Positions 22,376 to 30,168 of a stretch of 32,368 nt of DNA are shown here, piece after piece (position 1 is the stretch's first letter; each line of letters opens with the position of its first letter). Made by a program: the position numbers and the translations under genes. The notes below the pieces were generated by a model that was not told where the DNA came from, did not search any database, and saw only the letters and a list, made by a program, of their open reading frames with translations. The DNA is taken from contig JAAYBL010000093.1 in assembly GCA_012718945.1 (NCBI GenBank), positions 1 through 32,368 on the forward strand, read 5' to 3'. The DNA comes from Bacteroidales bacterium. Lineage in GTDB: Bacteria; Bacteroidota; Bacteroidia; Bacteroidales; UBA1402.

Positions 22376-22404
22376 TTCCAGCCTCCCTTCAGGAACGGCT
22401 GGAA
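22376..22404. terminator. Possible shared terminator between GH43 and acr3
   Basis: TTCCAGCC (22376-22383) and GGCTGGAA (22397-22404) form an 8-bp stem with a 13-base loop between two convergent genes. The right arm lies inside the last codons of acr3. There is no good T run, so the call is tentative. Confidence 0.35.
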
Positions 22405-23450
22405 CGGTTAAGAAACGCCGGTCTGGTTGTGTTGGCCAGGCGAACCAAAGTCAGCATAAGGGGTACCTCGACCAACACACCCACCACGGTGACCAGCGTA
22501 GCGCCTGAATCAAACCCAAACAGCACAATGGCCACGGCCACGGCAAGTTCGAAAAAGTTGCTGGCACCAATGAGGGCAGCCGGTGCGGCCACATCGTGCG
22601 GCAGCTTCCATCGATACGCCCAGCCGTAACCAATGCCGAAAATAAGAAAGGTTTGCAGGGTCAATGGGACAGCAATCAGCAGAATACTGAACGGATTGTG
22701 CAGGATAACCTCGCCTTGAAATGAAAAGATGATAATCAGGGTGAGCAATAAGCCGCCAATGGTGGTGCCGGTAAAGGCTTTCAAAAACGTGCTTTCAAAC
22801 CAGGCCAACCCTTTTCGTTTGATGACCAAACGTCGAGTAATCATGGCTGAGACGAGAGGTATGACCACAAATAAGACCACGGACAGCAACAGGGTATCCC
22901 AAGGAATGGCGATGCCGCTGACACCAAGCAGAAGGCTGACAATGGGAATGAAAGCCACCAAGATAACCAGATCGTTGACAGCCACTTGCACCAGCGTGTA
23001 GGCCGGATTGCCTTTCGTTAAGTGACTCCACACAAACACCATGGCTGTACAGGGAGCAGCCCCCAACAACACAGCGCCGGCCAAATATTCAGAGGCCAAC
23101 TCACCCGGTAAAAGCGACTTGAAAACCACAAAGAAAAACAGCCAGGCCAGGCCAAACATGGTAAAGGGCTTGATCAGCCAATTGACCACGAGGGTAACGG
23201 TCAAGCCTTTGGGGTTTTTGAATGCGTTGACGATGCTACCGAAGTCGATCTTGAGCATCATGGGAAAAATCATGATCCAGATAAGGATGGCGATGGGGAT
23301 AGACACGTTGGCGTACTCAAACTGACTTAAGGTGTCAGGCACCATGGGCAACCACTTTCCAATGGCAATGCCGGCAATAATGCACAACGTCACCCAAAGC
23401 GTGAGGTATCGGTCAAAAAAGGACATAGCGGGTTGAGGGTGCTTTTTCAT
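22389..23450 (-). CDS. acr3: Arsenite efflux transporter, ACR3 family
   Basis: This 353-residue inner-membrane protein has about ten hydrophobic helices. The ACR3 signature GAAPCTAMVFVWS holds the conserved Cys134 needed for As(III) binding, and the C-terminal EVPLMLTLVRLANTTR holds the conserved Glu. It exports arsenite using the proton gradient, the last step of arsenate detoxification after ArsC. Its ATG overlaps the arsM stop by 4 bases (ATGA), so translation is coupled. It is the last gene of the arsenic cluster. The older alternative name is arsB, but the sequence is ACR3, not the unrelated ArsB family. Confidence 0.95.
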   Translation of the reverse strand: MKKHPQPAMSFFDRYLTLWVTLCIIAGIAIGKWLPMVPDTLSQFEYANVSIPIAILIWIMIFPMMLKIDFGSIVNAFKNPKGLTVTLVVNWLIKPFTMFGLAWLFFFVVFKSLLPGELASEYLAGAVLLGAAPCTAMVFVWSHLTKGNPAYTLVQVAVNDLVILVAFIPIVSLLLGVSGIAIPWDTLLLSVVLFVVIPLVSAMITRRLVIKRKGLAWFESTFLKAFTGTTIGGLLLTLIIIFSFQGEVILHNPFSILLIAVPLTLQTFLIFGIGYGWAYRWKLPHDVAAPAALIGASNFFELAVAVAIVLFGFDSGATLVTVVGVLVEVPLMLTLVRLANTTRPAFLNRSSRS

Positions 23451-24304
23451 GGTTTTGTTCCTGTTACTGTGATGCTGAAGATACCATTGTCACCATTTAT
23501 ATAAGCCGCTTTTTCGGCAGATGTTAGATACTTGTCCAACACCGCTTCCGGTATGATGATGGGTTTTTGTTTGTGAATAGTCACCATGGGAAATCCCTGA
23601 AGACGAATAATGTCCAAATAGTCTTCCTGCTGAAGGGCTCCGGCAACGCAGCCCACATATAGTTCCGCCTCACTTCTGAGACCTTCCGGCAGTGTACCAG
23701 CCAGTACCACATCGGATACACAAAAATGGCCACCCGGTTTCAACACCCTCCAGACCTCGGCAAACGCTTTCCGTTTGTCGGGGACCAGGTTGAGGACACA
23801 GTTGGAGATCACTACATCAAAGGCTTCATCGGCCAAAGGCATGTGTTCAATATCTCCGAGGATAAACGTCAGGTTGTTATAGCCCAACTTCTCGGCGTTG
23901 ACCCTGGCTTTGTCCACCATGGCTTCCGTGAAATCCAATCCTGTCACACAACCTTCTGCCCCCACGATGGCGCGGGCCACAAAGCAGTCATTGCCCGCTC
24001 CGCTGCCAAGATCCAGCACATGGTCACCGAGTTTGATGCCAGCATATTGGGTGGGCAAGCCACAGCCTAGCCCCAAATCGGCATCGGGATTATACCCCTC
24101 CACGTGTTGGTACTCATCACCAATCATACTGAATTCCAGGGCGTTGCAGCAGCCTTTTGACCCACAACAGCCTGAAGAAGCTAGTTTGGTCGTTTCTGTA
24201 GCAATGCGTCCGTACTTGTCTTTGACAAGCCCTTTAATATCTTCGGGTTTCATCTGATTTTTGTTTTTTTTATTGGCCATTTTTACGTCACGGGAAACAG
24301 GCAT
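23447..24304 (-). CDS. arsM: Arsenite S-adenosylmethionine methyltransferase
   Basis: A 285-residue class I methyltransferase with the SAM motif VLDLGSGAGNDCFVAR and the ArsM cysteines: ISNCVLNLVPDK and YVGCVAGALQ correspond to the two As-binding Cys of algal ArsM. An extra Cys-rich N-terminal stretch (SSGCCGSKGCC) and GLGCGLP are present. ArsM turns As(III) into methylated and volatile arsenicals in the cytoplasm. The ATG at 24304 overlaps the arsC stop as TGATG, which favours this start; Met codons at residues 9 and 18 are alternatives. It overlaps acr3 by 4 bases. With acr3 and arsC it gives both export and biotransformation of arsenic. Confidence 0.94.
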   Translation of the reverse strand: MPVSRDVKMANKKNKNQMKPEDIKGLVKDKYGRIATETTKLASSGCCGSKGCCNALEFSMIGDEYQHVEGYNPDADLGLGCGLPTQYAGIKLGDHVLDLGSGAGNDCFVARAIVGAEGCVTGLDFTEAMVDKARVNAEKLGYNNLTFILGDIEHMPLADEAFDVVISNCVLNLVPDKRKAFAEVWRVLKPGGHFCVSDVVLAGTLPEGLRSEAELYVGCVAGALQQEDYLDIIRLQGFPMVTIHKQKPIIIPEAVLDKYLTSAEKAAYINGDNGIFSITVTGTKP

Positions 24305-24735
24305 CAAGCCTTCATCGACGTCTTCAGAACATCATCATAAAAACGCCGGAAACCCTCCTTGATTTCGTCCCTTACCCGGATGAATTCGCTCCGGATAAAG
24401 GCATCGCTGCCAACAGCGTGGCTTGGATCGTCAAAACCGATGTGCAAGCGGTGCTTGACCTTGCCCAGAAAAACGGGGCAGTTTTCGTTGGCGCCTCCAC
24501 AAACGGTAATTACATAATCCCAGGGCTGATCAATGTACAATGCCACCGAATCGGAGGTGTGGTGGCTGATGTCAATTCCAGCCTCTTTCATAACTTCGAC
24601 GGCCATGGGATTGAGTTTGCCAGAAGCCTCTGTACCAGCCGAACAGACTGTCAGGCCGGCATCAAACGACTGTAAAAAGCCATGGGCCATTTGACTGCGG
24701 CAACTATTGCCTGTGCAAAGAATTAGTATGTTCAT
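24304..24735 (-). CDS. arsC: Arsenate reductase, thioredoxin-coupled LMW-PTP type
   Basis: A 143-residue protein with a phosphatase-like P-loop, LCTGNSCRS (C-x5-R; nucleophile Cys7, Arg13), and the redox relay pair Cys79/Cys86 in VCGGANENCP, as in staphylococcal ArsC. The DDPSHAVG segment carries the general acid Asp. It reduces arsenate to arsenite; the disulfide made in each cycle is normally reset by thioredoxin. The real start is MNILILC at 24735. The frame runs further upstream to 24924 but only over the 3' end of the permease gene. It begins 13 bases after that gene's stop and overlaps arsM by 1 base. Confidence 0.95.
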   Translation of the reverse strand: MNILILCTGNSCRSQMAHGFLQSFDAGLTVCSAGTEASGKLNPMAVEVMKEAGIDISHHTSDSVALYIDQPWDYVITVCGGANENCPVFLGKVKHRLHIGFDDPSHAVGSDAFIRSEFIRVRDEIKEGFRRFYDDVLKTSMKA

Positions 24736-24748
24736 CGTTTTTATGTGA

Positions 24749-26089
24749 TTACAAGGCTCCATACAATAAACCAGCCAGCGTGGAAAGCACCACGACCAGG
24801 GAAACGTAGACGACTGTTTTCTGGGTACCCATGACATTCCGAATAACGAGCATGTTGGGGAGTGACAAGGAGGGTCCGGCCAGCAACAGGGCCAAAGCAG
24901 GACCTTTACCCATACCAGAGGCAATCAGTCCTTGCAGAATGGGCACCTCGGTGAGGGTGGCGAAATACATGAAGGCGCCCACAACGGAAGCAAAGAAATT
25001 GGAGAAAATCGAGTTCCCTCCTACCAGTGCCGTTATCCATTCATTGGGAATTACCCCGGCTATGGTTTGGCCATCATGTGTAGATCCCAGCAAGAAGCCG
25101 GCGGTGACCACCCCCACTGCCAAAAGGGGCATAATCTGTTTGGCAAAGCCCCAGGCAGACAGGGCCCACTCCTTGTTGTCGGGATCCCGTTTGTCAAACA
25201 AGGTGATGAGACTAAGACCGCTTATGGCCACCAGCATCGGTACTAGTGGGCTTATTTTGGCATTGTCGATGAAGCTCGTCGCCAAAAAAGCTGCAGCTAT
25301 CGTTGCGAGTACAGTAGCCACCACCCACTGCCATTTGATTTTCAAGATGGCGATGAGCGACCAGGCCAGCAACAAGCCCAAAAAACCTGTGATGTACCAT
25401 TTGTAGCTCCAAATCACATACCAGGCACTCGACGTATCACCCCCCGACGGAGCACCCCAGTTGGCAAACACCAAGATCAGCACGAGGGTAAAAAAGTGAA
25501 ACAGGGTTTGCCACATCGGGCGCTTTTCAGGCTCAGGCACAATGGTCAGTTGTTGTTCTTTCTTGACGCGTTCTTCCTTGCGATAAATAAGGGCCATGAT
25601 CAATCCGATGATCACACTGAACGTCACCGCACCGATGGTTCGAGCCAGTCCCATTTCAAAACCTAAAATACGGGCTGTCAAAATGATGGCTAAAATATTG
25701 ATAGCCGGGCCTGAATACAAAAACGCAATGGCCGGGCCCAGACCAGCACCCCGCTTGTGGATGCTGGAAAACAAGGGCAAGATGGTGCAGGAACAGACAG
25801 CCAGGATGGCACCTGATACGGAAGCCACCGTATAGGCCAACCATTTTTTGGCATTGGCACCAAAATACTTAAGCACCGAGCCTTGACTCACAAAAATGGC
25901 AATGACACCGGCAATGAAGAAAGCTGGCAGCAAACACAAGACCACATGCTCTCTGGCATACCATTTCACCAAATCCAAGGAGGCGGCAACAGCCGTATTG
26001 AACCGAGCACTTTCAATGGGTAAGAAGAAGGCCAACGCAAACACGGCCACCATCCAACCCAGTATTTTCACTTCTTTTTTCGTTTCCAC
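24749..26089 (-). CDS. ArsP-like permease (PF03773 type)
   Basis: This 446-residue membrane protein has about ten helices. The helix pair CSCTILPLFSSIHKRGAGLGPAIAFLYSGPAINILA and the repeat-like FASVVGAFMYFATLTEVPILQGLIASGMGKGPALALLLAGPSLSLPNML are characteristic of the ArsP_1/DUF318 permeases. ArsP exports trivalent methyl and aromatic arsenicals; other family members are of unknown substrate. Its position between the ArsG-like gene and arsC supports an arsenical substrate. Translation starts at a GTG (26089); the next Met is residue 13. One of the three predicted ArsR operators lies 20 bases upstream, so the gene may have its own promoter. Confidence 0.85.
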   Translation of the reverse strand: METKKEVKILGWMVAVFALAFFLPIESARFNTAVAASLDLVKWYAREHVVLCLLPAFFIAGVIAIFVSQGSVLKYFGANAKKWLAYTVASVSGAILAVCSCTILPLFSSIHKRGAGLGPAIAFLYSGPAINILAIILTARILGFEMGLARTIGAVTFSVIIGLIMALIYRKEERVKKEQQLTIVPEPEKRPMWQTLFHFFTLVLILVFANWGAPSGGDTSSAWYVIWSYKWYITGFLGLLLAWSLIAILKIKWQWVVATVLATIAAAFLATSFIDNAKISPLVPMLVAISGLSLITLFDKRDPDNKEWALSAWGFAKQIMPLLAVGVVTAGFLLGSTHDGQTIAGVIPNEWITALVGGNSIFSNFFASVVGAFMYFATLTEVPILQGLIASGMGKGPALALLLAGPSLSLPNMLVIRNVMGTQKTVVYVSLVVVLSTLAGLLYGAL

Positions 26090-26108: not shown

Positions 26109-26130
26109 TGTTCGTCTTTCAACGAACAAT
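26109..26130. promoter_or_regulatory. Predicted ArsR operator, site 3 (before the ArsP-like gene)
   Basis: TGTTCG (26109-26114) and CGAACA (26123-26128) flank 8 bases. Read on the minus strand it is TTGTTCG-N7-ACGAACA, the same pattern as the sites before arsR and before the thioredoxin-like gene. No clear -7 element follows it. Confidence 0.6.
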
Positions 26131-26143
26131 CAAAGGAAAAAAA

Positions 26144-26845
26144 TCAAAAGACTAACATAATCACGTAATACAACCCGACACCAAGAAACAGGATGGCCAC
26201 AATACGGCGAAACCAGGTTTCAAACACTTTCATCTTGTTGTAAAAACCACCAATGGAGCCGACCGAAAAAGCAATGAGCCAGGCGAACACGATGACCGGT
26301 ATACCCGTGGCCAAGGCAAACACCAAGGGCAGATAGAGGCCGGATGCGCTGCTGATGGTCAATGGGATGAGCATGCCAAAATACAGTACACCGCTGTAGG
26401 GACAAAATGCCAGCGCAAACACCACCCCCAACAACAATACGCCCCAAAAACCTTTGTTGGCCCGGTTTTCCATGGTTGATGTCAGGGAGCCGACACCAGG
26501 CAGGCGGATGAAATTAAACGCACCCAGCATGAACAAGCCTATCAGTATCAACAAGGGGCCCAATATTTTCTCTCCCCATTGTTGCAGGAAGCCGGCAATG
26601 TTGATCTTTCCTGCACCGAAATAGAAAAGCAGCCCAATGACCGTATAGGTGATGGCACGTCCGAGGGTATAAACCAAGCCATTGTAAAATACCTTCTTAC
26701 GGCTGACAATATCCTTGCTGATATAGCCGATGGCCGTGATGTTGGCGGCCAGGGGACAAGGACTGATGGCTGTCATCAGCCCCAGGAGAAATGCCGACAA
26801 GAAGGGAAGCTGGGTCGAATCCAGCCATTGTTGCAATACATCCAT
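26144..26845 (-). CDS. CcdA/DsbD-like permease, ArsG-like
   Basis: This 233-residue protein has about six membrane helices. Two conserved Cys are in equivalent positions at the helix ends, SPCPLAANI near the N-terminus and FCPYSGVLYFG in the middle, which is the DsbD/CcdA core layout. Proteins of this form next to an ArsF-like protein are annotated as ArsG, a permease for aromatic arsenicals. An alternative is a plain thiol-disulfide electron carrier across the membrane for the ArsF-like protein. It begins 12 bases after the ArsF-like gene, so the two are co-transcribed. No single residue proves arsenical transport. Confidence 0.8.
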   Translation of the reverse strand: MDVLQQWLDSTQLPFLSAFLLGLMTAISPCPLAANITAIGYISKDIVSRKKVFYNGLVYTLGRAITYTVIGLLFYFGAGKINIAGFLQQWGEKILGPLLILIGLFMLGAFNFIRLPGVGSLTSTMENRANKGFWGVLLLGVVFALAFCPYSGVLYFGMLIPLTISSASGLYLPLVFALATGIPVIVFAWLIAFSVGSIGGFYNKMKVFETWFRRIVAILFLGVGLYYVIMLVF

Positions 26846-26857
26846 GTGGTCAGTAAA

Positions 26858-27313
26858 TTACAGTGCGTCCACCGCTTTCTTAATCGCTACTTTCAGCTTA
26901 TCCGGATTGGAGCGGGCGTACATAAAACCATCGTTGGTCAGTTCGGTTTTCTTTGCCCCTTTCACCACGATCAAGGTTTGGCCGTTGATCCCCAACTTTT
27001 CGACCAGCGCTTCATGACCTTTTTCATCCAGGTTGATGGATTTCAGCACGATCTTGCCACCGTACAACGTTTTAAGTGCGTCTGCCGTGACGCTTTCCAC
27101 AGCTTGACAGGTGACGCAACGACGTGTGTAGTGGAAATAATACGCTTCAACCTGAGTCGATTGCGTATTCGCTGCCAGTAACTGACCCTCTTCAGCCAAT
27201 GAGGTCTGTTCGTTTTCAACGGAGGGATTTTTGGGGGCGTTGCTGCAGCTTTGGGCGTGAATACCAAAGACAAAAAGAGCAGCACAGAAGCCTAAGACAA
27301 GACGCTTTTTCAT
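26858..27313 (-). CDS. Exported thioredoxin-like protein, ArsF-like
   Basis: This 151-residue protein has a signal peptide (LVLGFCAALFVFGIHA). A Cys follows at once (QSCSN), but the lipobox is poor. The mature part has a low-complexity start, then a thioredoxin-like core with CVTC in YFHYTRRCVTCQAVE and a GQTLIVVKGAKKTEL strand/cis-Pro-like region. This resembles ArsF proteins, annotated as a subunit for reduction of nitro-aromatic arsenicals. It lies between a small CxxC protein and the DsbD-like ArsG-type permease, so a thiol relay of cytoplasm, membrane and periplasm is a reasonable model. Function is inferred from resemblance and position. Confidence 0.75.
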   Translation of the reverse strand: MKKRLVLGFCAALFVFGIHAQSCSNAPKNPSVENEQTSLAEEGQLLAANTQSTQVEAYYFHYTRRCVTCQAVESVTADALKTLYGGKIVLKSINLDEKGHEALVEKLGINGQTLIVVKGAKKTELTNDGFMYARSNPDKLKVAIKKAVDAL

Positions 27314-27350
27314 ACGTGGTTAATGATTGAATGTTTAACTATTATCAGTC

Positions 27351-27584
27351 TCAAGCAGTAATCAGGCGTTTGATTTCCTCCACCGAGGGCACCCTGCCTT
27401 TCACGACTATTTTACCGTCGATGATCAGAGCGGGGGTCATCATGACACCGCTACTCATAATTTCCGTGATATCTTCCACTTTGGTGACAGTAGCGTCCAC
27501 TCCCGTTTCAGCCACTGCTTCCCGAGTTACTTTTTCCAACGTTTTACATTTGGGGCAACCGGTGCCCAGTACTTTGATTTCCAT
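27351..27584 (-). CDS. Small thioredoxin-like redox protein
   Basis: This 77-residue cytoplasmic protein has a CPKC motif in VLGTGCPKCKTLEK and a MMTPALIIDGKIVVKGR segment with the cis-Pro. This is the short redox-active disulfide protein family (thioredoxin_3 type). In ars clusters such proteins precede ArsF/ArsG-like genes; it may correspond to ArsE, though I cannot confirm that name. It could feed electrons to the ArsG-like permease or reset ArsC. A predicted ArsR site lies about 50 bases upstream of its ATG, in the 85-base gap after arsR, so it may start a second transcript. Confidence 0.85.
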   Translation of the reverse strand: MEIKVLGTGCPKCKTLEKVTREAVAETGVDATVTKVEDITEIMSSGVMMTPALIIDGKIVVKGRVPSVEEIKRLITA

Positions 27585-27633
27585 GTTTGATCGTTTAAAA
27601 GGGGTTTTTCAACTTATACACTTATTGGTACTC

Positions 27634-27655
27634 TATTCGTAAAACAACGAACAAT
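27634..27655. promoter_or_regulatory. Predicted ArsR operator, site 2 (between arsR and the thioredoxin-like gene)
   Basis: TTCG (27636-27639) and CGAA (27648-27651) flank 8 bases. On the minus strand it reads TTGTTCG-N7-ACGAATA. It matches sites 1 and 3 in arm sequence and spacing. A loose -7-like sequence lies downstream but not an exact TAnnTTTG. Confidence 0.6.
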
Positions 27656-27669
27656 AGCGGCAAAAAAAA

Positions 27670-28008
27670 TCAACAGTCGCAGGATCGGTTGTTTACCTTC
27701 GTGCCTTGCTTAAGAAAATGATCGAACAGTTGCCTGGCCTCTTCCCAATTGGTTTGGTTCAAGCAGTACTTGACCTTGGGGGCCTCGATCTCTCCTTGAA
27801 TAAGGCCTGCCTCTTTCAACGCCTTCAAGTGCTGTGACAAGGTGGATTTGGCGATGGGCAGTTCCTCGCTCAAATCCCCGCTGTAACAACAGGCTTGCCT
27901 GGAAAGTAATTCCAGGACATACATCCGTACAGGATGGCCCATCGCTTTGGCATAGCGAGCCATGCGCTTGTGCTGCTCTGTAATGGGTATTTGACGCTTG
28001 ACGGCCAT
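27670..28008 (-). CDS. arsR: ArsR/SmtB family metalloregulator
   Basis: This 112-residue winged-helix repressor has the recognition region CYSGDLSEELPIAKSTLSQHLKALKEAGLIQGE, typical of ArsR. Candidate As(III) ligands are Cys40-Cys41 (ACCYSGDL, near the place of the E. coli ELCVCDL motif) and the C-terminal Cys110/Cys112 (SCDC). In the apo form it should repress its own promoter; arsenite binding releases it. The operator dyad at 28012-28033 overlaps its -7 element. It heads the arsenic cluster, and matching dyads before two later genes suggest it controls the whole set. Confidence 0.94.
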   Translation of the reverse strand: MAVKRQIPITEQHKRMARYAKAMGHPVRMYVLELLSRQACCYSGDLSEELPIAKSTLSQHLKALKEAGLIQGEIEAPKVKYCLNQTNWEEARQLFDHFLKQGTKVNNRSCDC

Positions 28009-28011
28009 CTA

Positions 28012-28033
28012 TTGTTCGTATTATTGCGAACAA
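28012..28033. promoter_or_regulatory. Predicted ArsR operator, site 1 (arsR promoter)
   Basis: TTGTTCG (28012-28018) and CGAACAA (28027-28033) form a 7-bp dyad with an 8-bp spacer. It lies 3 bases upstream of the arsR ATG and overlaps the end of the -7 element, so binding would block transcription. Confidence 0.7.
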
Positions 28034-28038
28034 AGATA
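28031..28038 (-). promoter_or_regulatory. -7 element of arsR
   Basis: TATCTTTG on the minus strand, 22 bases before the ATG at 28008, exact match to TAnnTTTG. Its TTTG end is shared with the operator dyad. Confidence 0.65.
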
Positions 28039-28092: not shown

Positions 28093-28144
28093 TGCTGAAG
28101 TGACCCCCAAAAGTCAAATCCAACTATTGGGGGTCAAATCAGCA
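28093..28144. repeat. 18-bp imperfect inverted repeat between arsR and the repeat protein
   Basis: TGCTGA-AG-TGACCCCCAA (28093-28110) is matched by the reverse complement TGCTGA-TT-TGACCCCCAA (28127-28144), with only the two central bases different. The spacer is 16 bases. Inside, GTCAAATC occurs twice (28113-28120, 28133-28140). It may be a miniature mobile-element remnant or a terminator for the repeat-protein gene. The nearest T run on the minus strand is about 14 bases beyond the stem, which is a weak point for the terminator view. Confidence 0.5.
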
Positions 28145-28168: not shown

Positions 28169-30088
28169 TTACTTGATAATCTTCACCACCTGCTTTCCCA
28201 CCTGAACCAGGTAAGTGCCAGCCGGTACATTCGCCATATTCACACTGGCTTCCTCTCCATCAACCTTGAGCATTCGCACGATGCGGCCGTTCAAATCAAA
28301 CACCTTGATGAGTTCACCTTGGGTAGCCCCCTTGATTTTCAAACAATCAGCCACCGGATTGGGATATACCTCAAGCTTAACCTCAATAGATTGCACACCC
28401 ACCATTCGTTGAGAATAAAAGTAGGTAGTGCGGTTTCTTTCCACCCAATCGGTTACTTCCCAATCATAAAAGATCGAGTAAGCATAATCACCGGCTTCGT
28501 TGATCGTGTATTCGCGCTTCGAATAGTTGACCCACACCTGGTTGGTTTCATCCCAATCGTACGTGCGCGTTATTGACCTGAGTCCATTTTCGTGGAATTG
28601 GAACGTCCGCTTGAACGTATATTCGTCTATCCATGGTTCCAAGGACGAATAACGATAAAATTGAATAAACCATGCCTGCTCACCACTCAAATAATACTCA
28701 GATTCCCATGAATACGTTATCAGCCACTCGTCATTGGTCAAATTATCATATTCGAGCCACAACTCATAAGTCATAACCCATCCATTATCTGAAGAATACG
28801 AATATCGGTTTAACGACTGCAAATTGCCGTAGTCATACCATGATTTTTCCCAGTAGGTTACCCCCTTCCATATGCTTGCCTCCACATCCCAATCATACCG
28901 TACATATTTGGATGTATCACCCTTTTCACTATCGTATTCAAGGTTTGATTTTGTATCGTTGACCCAGGCTGATTTTGAAGCATTCCATTGCTGTTCGATG
29001 GTTAATTCATCAAACCACTGATCGCCTTGTTTATCATAGACGTAACGAATGTCCGGACTCCAGGTTTGCGTCGATACGGCGTATTCGAAGTAGGCTTTCG
29101 ATTCAAGGCTACCACCAGGCAAGTATGTTTCATCGGTACGTTGGCTCCATACTCTCAATGAATCACTCCAATAATACTGACTGTACAGTGTTTCTTCACC
29201 CGTCACCTCGTCGCTAACATACCCGTATTTTTCTTTTCCTATCCATATTTTGAGGCTATCATCCCAATCATAATACTCATATTGATAGGAATAGCCATTC
29301 ACATTTCTGTATTGCAGATCTTTACGATAAGCCATCCACTCCCCAACGGTGGAATCATAGCTATAATCAGTCCATTCCTTGTAGAATTCACGCTGAGGCC
29401 CATCAAAAACGATCTCTCCTCTGTAATTACAGACCCACTTGGAACTGTCCTTGTCCCAATAATAATCAACCTGGTGTTCCAACAGGTTGTTTTCACCGTC
29501 ATACTCAAAAACAGAGGTTTCTTTTTCATCCGGCAGCAGTTGTTGCTTCGACTCGTCCCATTCGTAATAGATCCACAACAATAGGTGACCAGCATCATCA
29601 TAAAGTCTCGTCTCTAATTCAGTGGTATCCCAGATAGCCGTGTTTTCATTGAATGACATATAGGCCTCTAGAATTCTGCGACCATAGGCATCGTAATCGT
29701 ACACCGTTTTAGAGGTTGAAAGACCTTCTTTAGATACCACAACGCTATCCAGAAAAGTCTTCGTAGACTGTAAGCCTGCCTTCCTGACTGGACTTTTCCT
29801 CCTGCCTGAGTCCAAAGCACGCGCCTTGTCAACGATGGGCGTACGCATAAGCGATCTCTCTTTGACCGTTTGATTGGATTCATCCTCATTCATACTTCTC
29901 AGTAACGGACTGATAGGCTTCTTGATTTTTTGTGCCGCTACAGACTTTGAAGCCAAGCGTTGATTTGATGCCACCACTTTCTGAGAAATGGGCCCTTTAC
30001 CGCCGGTTGCCAACAAGGGCAACGATACCATGGCCACTCCTACCAAGGTAAGGAAGGTCAAACAATGTCTCAAACTCATTTTTTTCAT
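28169..30088 (-). CDS. Secreted Tyr/Trp-rich repeat protein with T9SS type A sorting domain
   Basis: From ATG 30088 it has 639 residues; ATGs at 30097 and 30079 are alternatives. A signal peptide (CLTFLTLVGVAMVSLPLLA) and a basic, Ser/Lys-rich region lead to about 12 degenerate repeats of 30-33 residues, from roughly residue 130 to 560. Each has a Y-D/E-W-D-x(5)-W core, as in YYWDKDSSKWVCNYR, YDWDDSLKIWIGKE, YDWDETNQVWVNYS. The C-terminus (LEVYPNPVADCLKIKGATQG .. VPAGTYLVQV) is a T9SS type A sorting signal, so it is exported to the surface or medium. The repeats look like antiparallel beta hairpins, similar in style to YD-repeat or DUF3836-like proteins, but I recognise no function. It has its own promoter. 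Confidence 0.85.
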   Translation of the reverse strand: MKKMSLRHCLTFLTLVGVAMVSLPLLATGGKGPISQKVVASNQRLASKSVAAQKIKKPISPLLRSMNEDESNQTVKERSLMRTPIVDKARALDSGRRKSPVRKAGLQSTKTFLDSVVVSKEGLSTSKTVYDYDAYGRRILEAYMSFNENTAIWDTTELETRLYDDAGHLLLWIYYEWDESKQQLLPDEKETSVFEYDGENNLLEHQVDYYWDKDSSKWVCNYRGEIVFDGPQREFYKEWTDYSYDSTVGEWMAYRKDLQYRNVNGYSYQYEYYDWDDSLKIWIGKEKYGYVSDEVTGEETLYSQYYWSDSLRVWSQRTDETYLPGGSLESKAYFEYAVSTQTWSPDIRYVYDKQGDQWFDELTIEQQWNASKSAWVNDTKSNLEYDSEKGDTSKYVRYDWDVEASIWKGVTYWEKSWYDYGNLQSLNRYSYSSDNGWVMTYELWLEYDNLTNDEWLITYSWESEYYLSGEQAWFIQFYRYSSLEPWIDEYTFKRTFQFHENGLRSITRTYDWDETNQVWVNYSKREYTINEAGDYAYSIFYDWEVTDWVERNRTTYFYSQRMVGVQSIEVKLEVYPNPVADCLKIKGATQGELIKVFDLNGRIVRMLKVDGEEASVNMANVPAGTYLVQVGKQVVKIIK

Positions 30089-30168
30089 GATGTTCATTGA
30101 TTAAAAGAGAGTTGTTAGTTCAAGTGAACGGAAGATATGGAGACGAAGATTGTTTTTCGGTATAAACG

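Follow-up and report, generated by a model that had tools for sequence, protein, structure and literature searches.

Arsenic resistance (ars) operons controlled by ArsR/SmtB-family repressors are generally described with one operator, located at the promoter. The cluster reported here resembles the ars operons of E. coli R773 and K-12 in having arsR first, an operator over the promoter, and then genes for efflux, reduction, and methylation; it differs from them in carrying two extra predicted operators inside the operon, and in the cysteines of its repressor (CC at positions 40–41, and C82). The arsEFG genes have been described for nitro- and amino-aromatic arsenicals. A second ArsR site has reportedly been placed behind arsR in the E. 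coli arsR-ABS-reporter circuits built by Stocker in 2003 and by Merulla and van der Meer. Those circuits share with the present cluster an autoregulated arsR, an operator copy directly downstream, and a lower background expected for the genes behind it; unlike them, the layout here is natural and conserved, has up to two internal sites, and combines the operator TGTTCGT-N6-ACGAACA with a Bacteroidota promoter and with a stop codon and an A-tract at constant spacing. In E. coli, a second ArsR site downstream of arsR lowers background (PMC3918153), and ArsR appears among the proteins listed as roadblocks (PMC10310618). Roadblocking by ArsR is known from E. coli, where the repressor has an operator unlike the dyad described below. 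Known elements include ArsR and the operator at its promoter, the arsEFG genes, and auxiliary sites for ArsR. In the open-access papers searched we found neither a naturally occurring ars operon that has conserved ArsR operators in its interior nor a description of the combination of stop codon, A-tract, and dyad set out here, such absence being weak evidence.

The window (the whole stretch of DNA analyzed, 32,368 nt from a Bacteroidales bacterium) encodes a cluster in the order arsR-arsE-arsF-arsG-arsP-arsC-arsM-acr3 (Table 1). ArsR scores 60.6 bits against NF033788 (cut-off 55) and has an ArsR-type winged helix-turn-helix; it carries K54 within the sequence PIAKS, as well as C40, C41, and C82, and a search of the whole genome returned one match to it. 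CC and YC motifs are present in 97/99 ArsR relatives, a pattern that differs from the CVCDLC of E. coli. The C-terminus of the window ArsR is CDC (27670–27690), and a cysteine within the last 12 residues occurs in only 5/99 relatives. The genes that the initial annotation had termed a redox-permease block are the known arsEFG set: homologues of arsE, arsF, and arsG stand in order, and all score above the cut-offs of curated models, as in the described arsEFG operon, from which the cluster differs in that arsEFG is followed by arsP, arsC, arsM, and acr3, with a predicted ArsR site between. The N-terminus of ArsF (26858–27313) is signal-peptide-like and ends near a cysteine (GIHAQSCSN), so that a lipoprotein is possible. 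An inverted repeat with 22-nt arms (TGACCCCCAA..., 28093–28144) separates the arsR promoter from the end of the gene at 28169–30097 and resembles a terminator belonging to the latter.

Table 1. Predicted regulatory elements and genes of the ars cluster, listed in the direction of transcription.
Feature	Position	Strand	Basis and remarks
Site 1, predicted promoter operator, TGTTCGCAATAATACGAACA	28013..28032	-	exact match; kept before arsR in 62 loci
-7 box of the arsR promoter, TATCTTTG	28031..28038	-	10.9 bits; shares TG with site 1
arsR, ArsR/SmtB-family repressor, 112 aa	27670..28008	-	Pfam HTH_5 (PF01022) 5e-13; NF033788 above cut-off
A-tract before site 2, ATTTTTTTT	27662..27670	-	sequence; tract rule; ends 9 bases ahead of site 2
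Site 2, predicted internal operator behind arsR, TGTTCGTTGTTTTACGAATA	27634..27653	-	exact match; arsR/arsE gap in 62 loci
arsE, MTH895/ArsE-type thioredoxin-like protein, 77 aa	27351..27584	-	TIGR00412 2.4e-35, above cut-off
arsF	26858..27313	-	NF040494 4.4e-26, above cut-off
arsG, DsbD-like permease	26144..26845	-	NF040495 2.7e-90, above cut-off
A-tract before site 3, ATTTTTTT	26137..26144	-	sequence; tract rule; ends 9 bases ahead of site 3
Imperfect -7-like box before site 3 (TA to TT), TTCCTTTG	26131..26138	-	9.6 bits
Site 3, predicted internal operator behind arsG, TGTTCGTTGAAAGACGAACA	26109..26128	-	exact match; 29 loci with a site here
ArsP-type permease	24749..26089	-	Pfam ArsP_1 1.7e-68
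arsC, thioredoxin-type arsenate reductase-like	24304..24735	-	LMWPc 3e-17; TIGR02691 1.1e-36, below cut-off
arsM, arsenite methyltransferase	23447..24292	-	NF008823 3.5e-99, above cut-off
acr3, arsenite efflux transporter	22389..23450	-	TIGR00832 1.3e-114, above cut-off

Three dyads of the form TGTTCGY-N6-ACGAAYA were identified in the cluster, the symmetric unit being TGTTCGT-N6-ACGAACA (20 bp). The initial annotation had reported TTGTTCG-N7-ACGAAYA three times on the minus strand; exact 21-mer matches are indeed found there at 26109–26129, 27634–27654, and 28013–28033 (the ends first given were one base off at each site), and their placement is as it had described, with site 1 over the arsR -7 box, site 2 between arsR and arsE, and site 3 between arsG and arsP. 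With up to two mismatches on both strands, the window holds seven matches vs. 0.33 expected from 100 dinucleotide shuffles (shuffle maximum 3). The genome scan that it had suggested found the pattern to be uncommon away from ars genes: across 2,962,290 bases in 316 contigs, the exact matches to TGTTCGYNNNNNNACGAAYA are the three cluster sites only. Tolerating one mismatch adds two genome sites (on contigs C30 and C170), compared with about one per strand in a reversed control; no adjoining ars gene was seen at either, and the C30 site lies inside a 542-codon open reading frame. As no ars neighbors were seen, these were rejected as further operators.

Conservation of the dyads was assessed in 80 public-genome loci that encode ArsR relatives, together with the window and one relative of the same genus. 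A dyad occurs just before arsR in 62 loci, behind arsR in 62, and behind arsG in 29; because the loci are related rather than independent, p-values for such counts would overstate significance, and no weight is placed on them. Sites 1 and 2 thereby recur in approximately 60 Bacteroidales arsR-arsEFG clusters, and site 3 in approximately 29, site 3 not having been found in L011, the nearest relative with the cluster. Over 984 kb, an arm spacing of 8 gave 174 matches vs. 27–75 at other spacings. A DNA-only pattern search of the order matched 49/295 genomes (12 for the reversed control), and 29/30 of the loci fetched from this search adjoin ars genes. A third half-site, ACGAA, at +20 to +24 from the dyad start, is present in approximately 88% of site-2 loci (e.g., L015, L047, and L051); it is absent at window site 2 and at site 3.

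The operator arms change together with the start of the ArsR recognition helix. Repressors with PIAKS pair with GTTCG/CGAAC arms, at least one G arm being present in 72/73 upstream dyads, and those with PIARS pair with TTTCG/CGAAA arms (9/9 upstream and 4/4 downstream); the exception is site 1 of the K-type locus L044, which is of the T type. The tree places the K/R switch at a single point (97/90 support), and therefore this is one co-change retained in 11 relatives, not eleven events; many independent switches were rejected, given that the tree requires one change only. Judging from ArsR-family structures, K54 would contact the DNA. The PIARS clade with TTTCG-N8-CGAAA operators comprises L012, L014, L087–L093, L125, L126, L135, L137, L144, L146, L148, and L154, and two tandem operators precede arsR in L144 and L146. 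Because this genome has the dyads in the cluster alone, relatives keep their layout, and the operator co-varies with the recognition helix, we assign them to the adjacent ArsR: they are almost certainly its operators, and the earlier proposal that one repressor serves all three holds. By analogy with the family, ArsR would bind the dyads and be released by arsenic.

Comparison of the flanking sequences divides the sites into two operator types, a predicted promoter type (site 1) and a predicted stop/A-tract type (sites 2 and 3). Site 1 overlaps TAnCTTTG, the -7 element used by the primary sigma factor of Bacteroidota (PMC7366714), and in 62 loci a TA..TTTG consensus stands at -6 to +1. A strong -7 box accompanies site 1 in 55/62 cases (89%), vs. 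11/63 (17%) for site 2 and 4/29 (14%) for site 3, in a search range of -80 to +40 with a background of 15% in random 121-nt tiles; -7 boxes at sites 2 and 3 are therefore no commoner than in random tiles. The -7 box of a sigma-ABfr promoter (TAnnTTTG) is accordingly present at site 1 and not at sites 2 and 3. Scored with a -7 matrix built from other loci, the window has only TT-variant boxes at its internal sites (TTTTTTTG before site 2 and TTCCTTTG before site 3). This matrix would miss the further promoter types of Bacteroidota, namely PM2 and those with unknown ECF motifs (PMC7366714), and a sigma-70-type promoter scan returned nothing useful, as expected for Bacteroidota. The internal sites may still have weak promoters, above all window site 3, where TTCCTTTG is a near -7 box (9.6 bits).

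What the internal sites have instead is a fixed arrangement of stop codon (at about -19, range -17 to -20), A-tract ending at -9, 8-base spacer, and dyad. Both internal sites of the window fit this module. The arsR stop TGA (27672–27670) lies at -19 to -17 relative to site 2, and its last base is the first base of the tract ATTTTTTTT, which ends at -9; the arsG stop TGA (26146–26144) lies at -18 to -16 relative to site 3, and likewise shares its last base with the first base of ATTTTTTT, which also ends at -9. The tract is a run of A followed by T, with no TpA step, and has at least 8 bases in 83% of site-2 and 100% of site-3 cases; it ends at -9 in 49/56 and 27/29, respectively. Such a tract is found at 73/80 dyad-bearing stops vs. 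34/1239 other stops, and the module is present in 15/19 dyads of loci that played no part in its definition. In the T-type clade (L126, L135, L148, and L154), the arms are changed, and tract and spacing are kept. Across the full set of loci, the tract accompanies 75/81 stop-adjacent dyads and a TA..TT -7 box 10/81, whereas the figures for other dyads are 20/81 and 46/81. Phylum-wide, the module was at or below the reversed control in 247 sampled genomes (11 matched), and therefore belongs to Bacteroidales ars clusters. The tract was rejected as a general promoter part, as A4WWTTTR elements without a dyad lack a downstream -7 consensus, and the module was rejected as an antisense promoter or terminator, there being no box and no U-run in place.

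The initial annotation held that arsR, the arsEFG genes, and the arsP-arsC-arsM-acr3 block can be controlled separately by one repressor, that is, as three ArsR-controlled units in which the internal dyads are operators of their own promoters. On this view, the A-tract would be part of a non-standard promoter. The high conservation and fixed spacing of the module are like those of promoter parts, the centers of site 2 read T[TA]nTTTTG, and window site 3 has TTCCTTTG at -10. Furthermore, three loci (L020, L036, and L086) have no dyad before arsR, and their sole upstream-type dyad lies approximately 240 bases behind it, with a full TATCTTTG box in L086 and TTTATTTG in L020 and L036. However, the canonical -7 boxes of sites 2 and 3 are at background, with a stop codon and A-tract in their place; the distance from TTTR to the center box is 13 bases, vs. 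a promoter peak at 18–19 in these loci, so that the two were rejected as a -33/-7 pair; and because the A-tract has no TpA step, a TAnnTTTG box at the tract is excluded. We therefore regard promoters at the internal sites as unlikely, although a serious alternative. Separate control requires a promoter for each internal site, and since these sites have no excess of -7 boxes, graded control of one transcript is the more likely arrangement.

The reading that we prefer, with a probability of roughly 0.6, is that the cluster forms one ArsR-controlled transcription unit in which site 1 would block initiation and sites 2 and 3, operator copies on the coding strand behind arsR and arsG, would act as roadblocks to elongating RNA polymerase. 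Without arsenic, an ArsR dimer would occupy all three operators. At site 1, ArsR over the -7 box and the start point would block initiation, as in classic autorepression; at sites 2 and 3, bound ArsR would stop those polymerases that have passed site 1. Transcripts from leaky or partly induced initiation would thus stop behind arsR at site 2 or behind arsEFG at site 3, with the last reading frame intact, and such stops behind stop codons would leave complete arsR or arsREFG messages, by which the repressor would still be made and the downstream genes stay shut. From general polymerase dimensions, the RNA end of a stalled polymerase is estimated to lie near the stop codon and tract. The A-tract would probably aid the stopping or release of blocked polymerase, or set the shape of the DNA. 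Trivalent arsenic would remove ArsR, and the downstream genes would then be transcribed in full.

Two further roles for the internal dyads were weighed against roadblocking. Sites 2 and 3 might be only extra ArsR sites, which raise the local repressor concentration or form loops with site 1 and leave elongation unblocked. The distances of 379 and 1904 bases would permit loops, and in other systems DNA loops reinforce weak roadblocks and repressors (PMC10310618), but placement tied to the stop codon (-17 to -20) is unnecessary for loops, and we consider this role improbable. ArsR-family dimers are, moreover, not known to tetramerize for looping. Alternatively, the dyads might act mainly as RNA hairpins, in attenuation or in mRNA protection or processing, as in the ars1 operon of Bacillus sp. 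CDB3, where an attenuator hairpin within the operon, like the dyads here an inverted repeat, parts a short from a long transcript (PMC4562236). Each internal dyad folds to an 8-bp hairpin (-8.0 and -9.3 kcal/mol), yet folding energies in longer context are unremarkable (z of -1.8 and -0.35). In CDB3 the element is an RNA terminator hairpin with a U-run, whereas here a repressor-type dyad stands with no U-run behind site 2 or 3, no terminator was called, and neither site qualifies as an intrinsic terminator. Additionally, the sequence itself is kept around the core beyond mere pairing (the TTCG/CGAA core being imposed by the scan), an A/A or G/A end breaks a pair in 15/75 K-type site-2 dyads, and the same dyad also lies over the site 1 promoter. 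RNA hairpins as the main function are thus likewise improbable.

The specific operator and the K/R–G/T recognition pairing would be usable for annotating arsenic regulons in Bacteroidota. More tentatively, and at somewhat less than even odds, the conserved stop codon, A-tract, spacer, and dyad could constitute an elongation-control module that gates successive operon segments, so that repressor, organoarsenical, and inorganic-arsenic genes would be expressed in steps, with an A-tract that has a function of its own in arresting or releasing the blocked polymerase. If the roadblock reading is true, the cluster would offer a clean system for the block of elongating polymerase by a small repressor and for the contribution of the A-tract, and staged operon expression without extra promoters would be open to study; many Bacteroidales would then naturally use a design that biosensor engineers built into E. 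coli, with extra sites behind the repressor gene.
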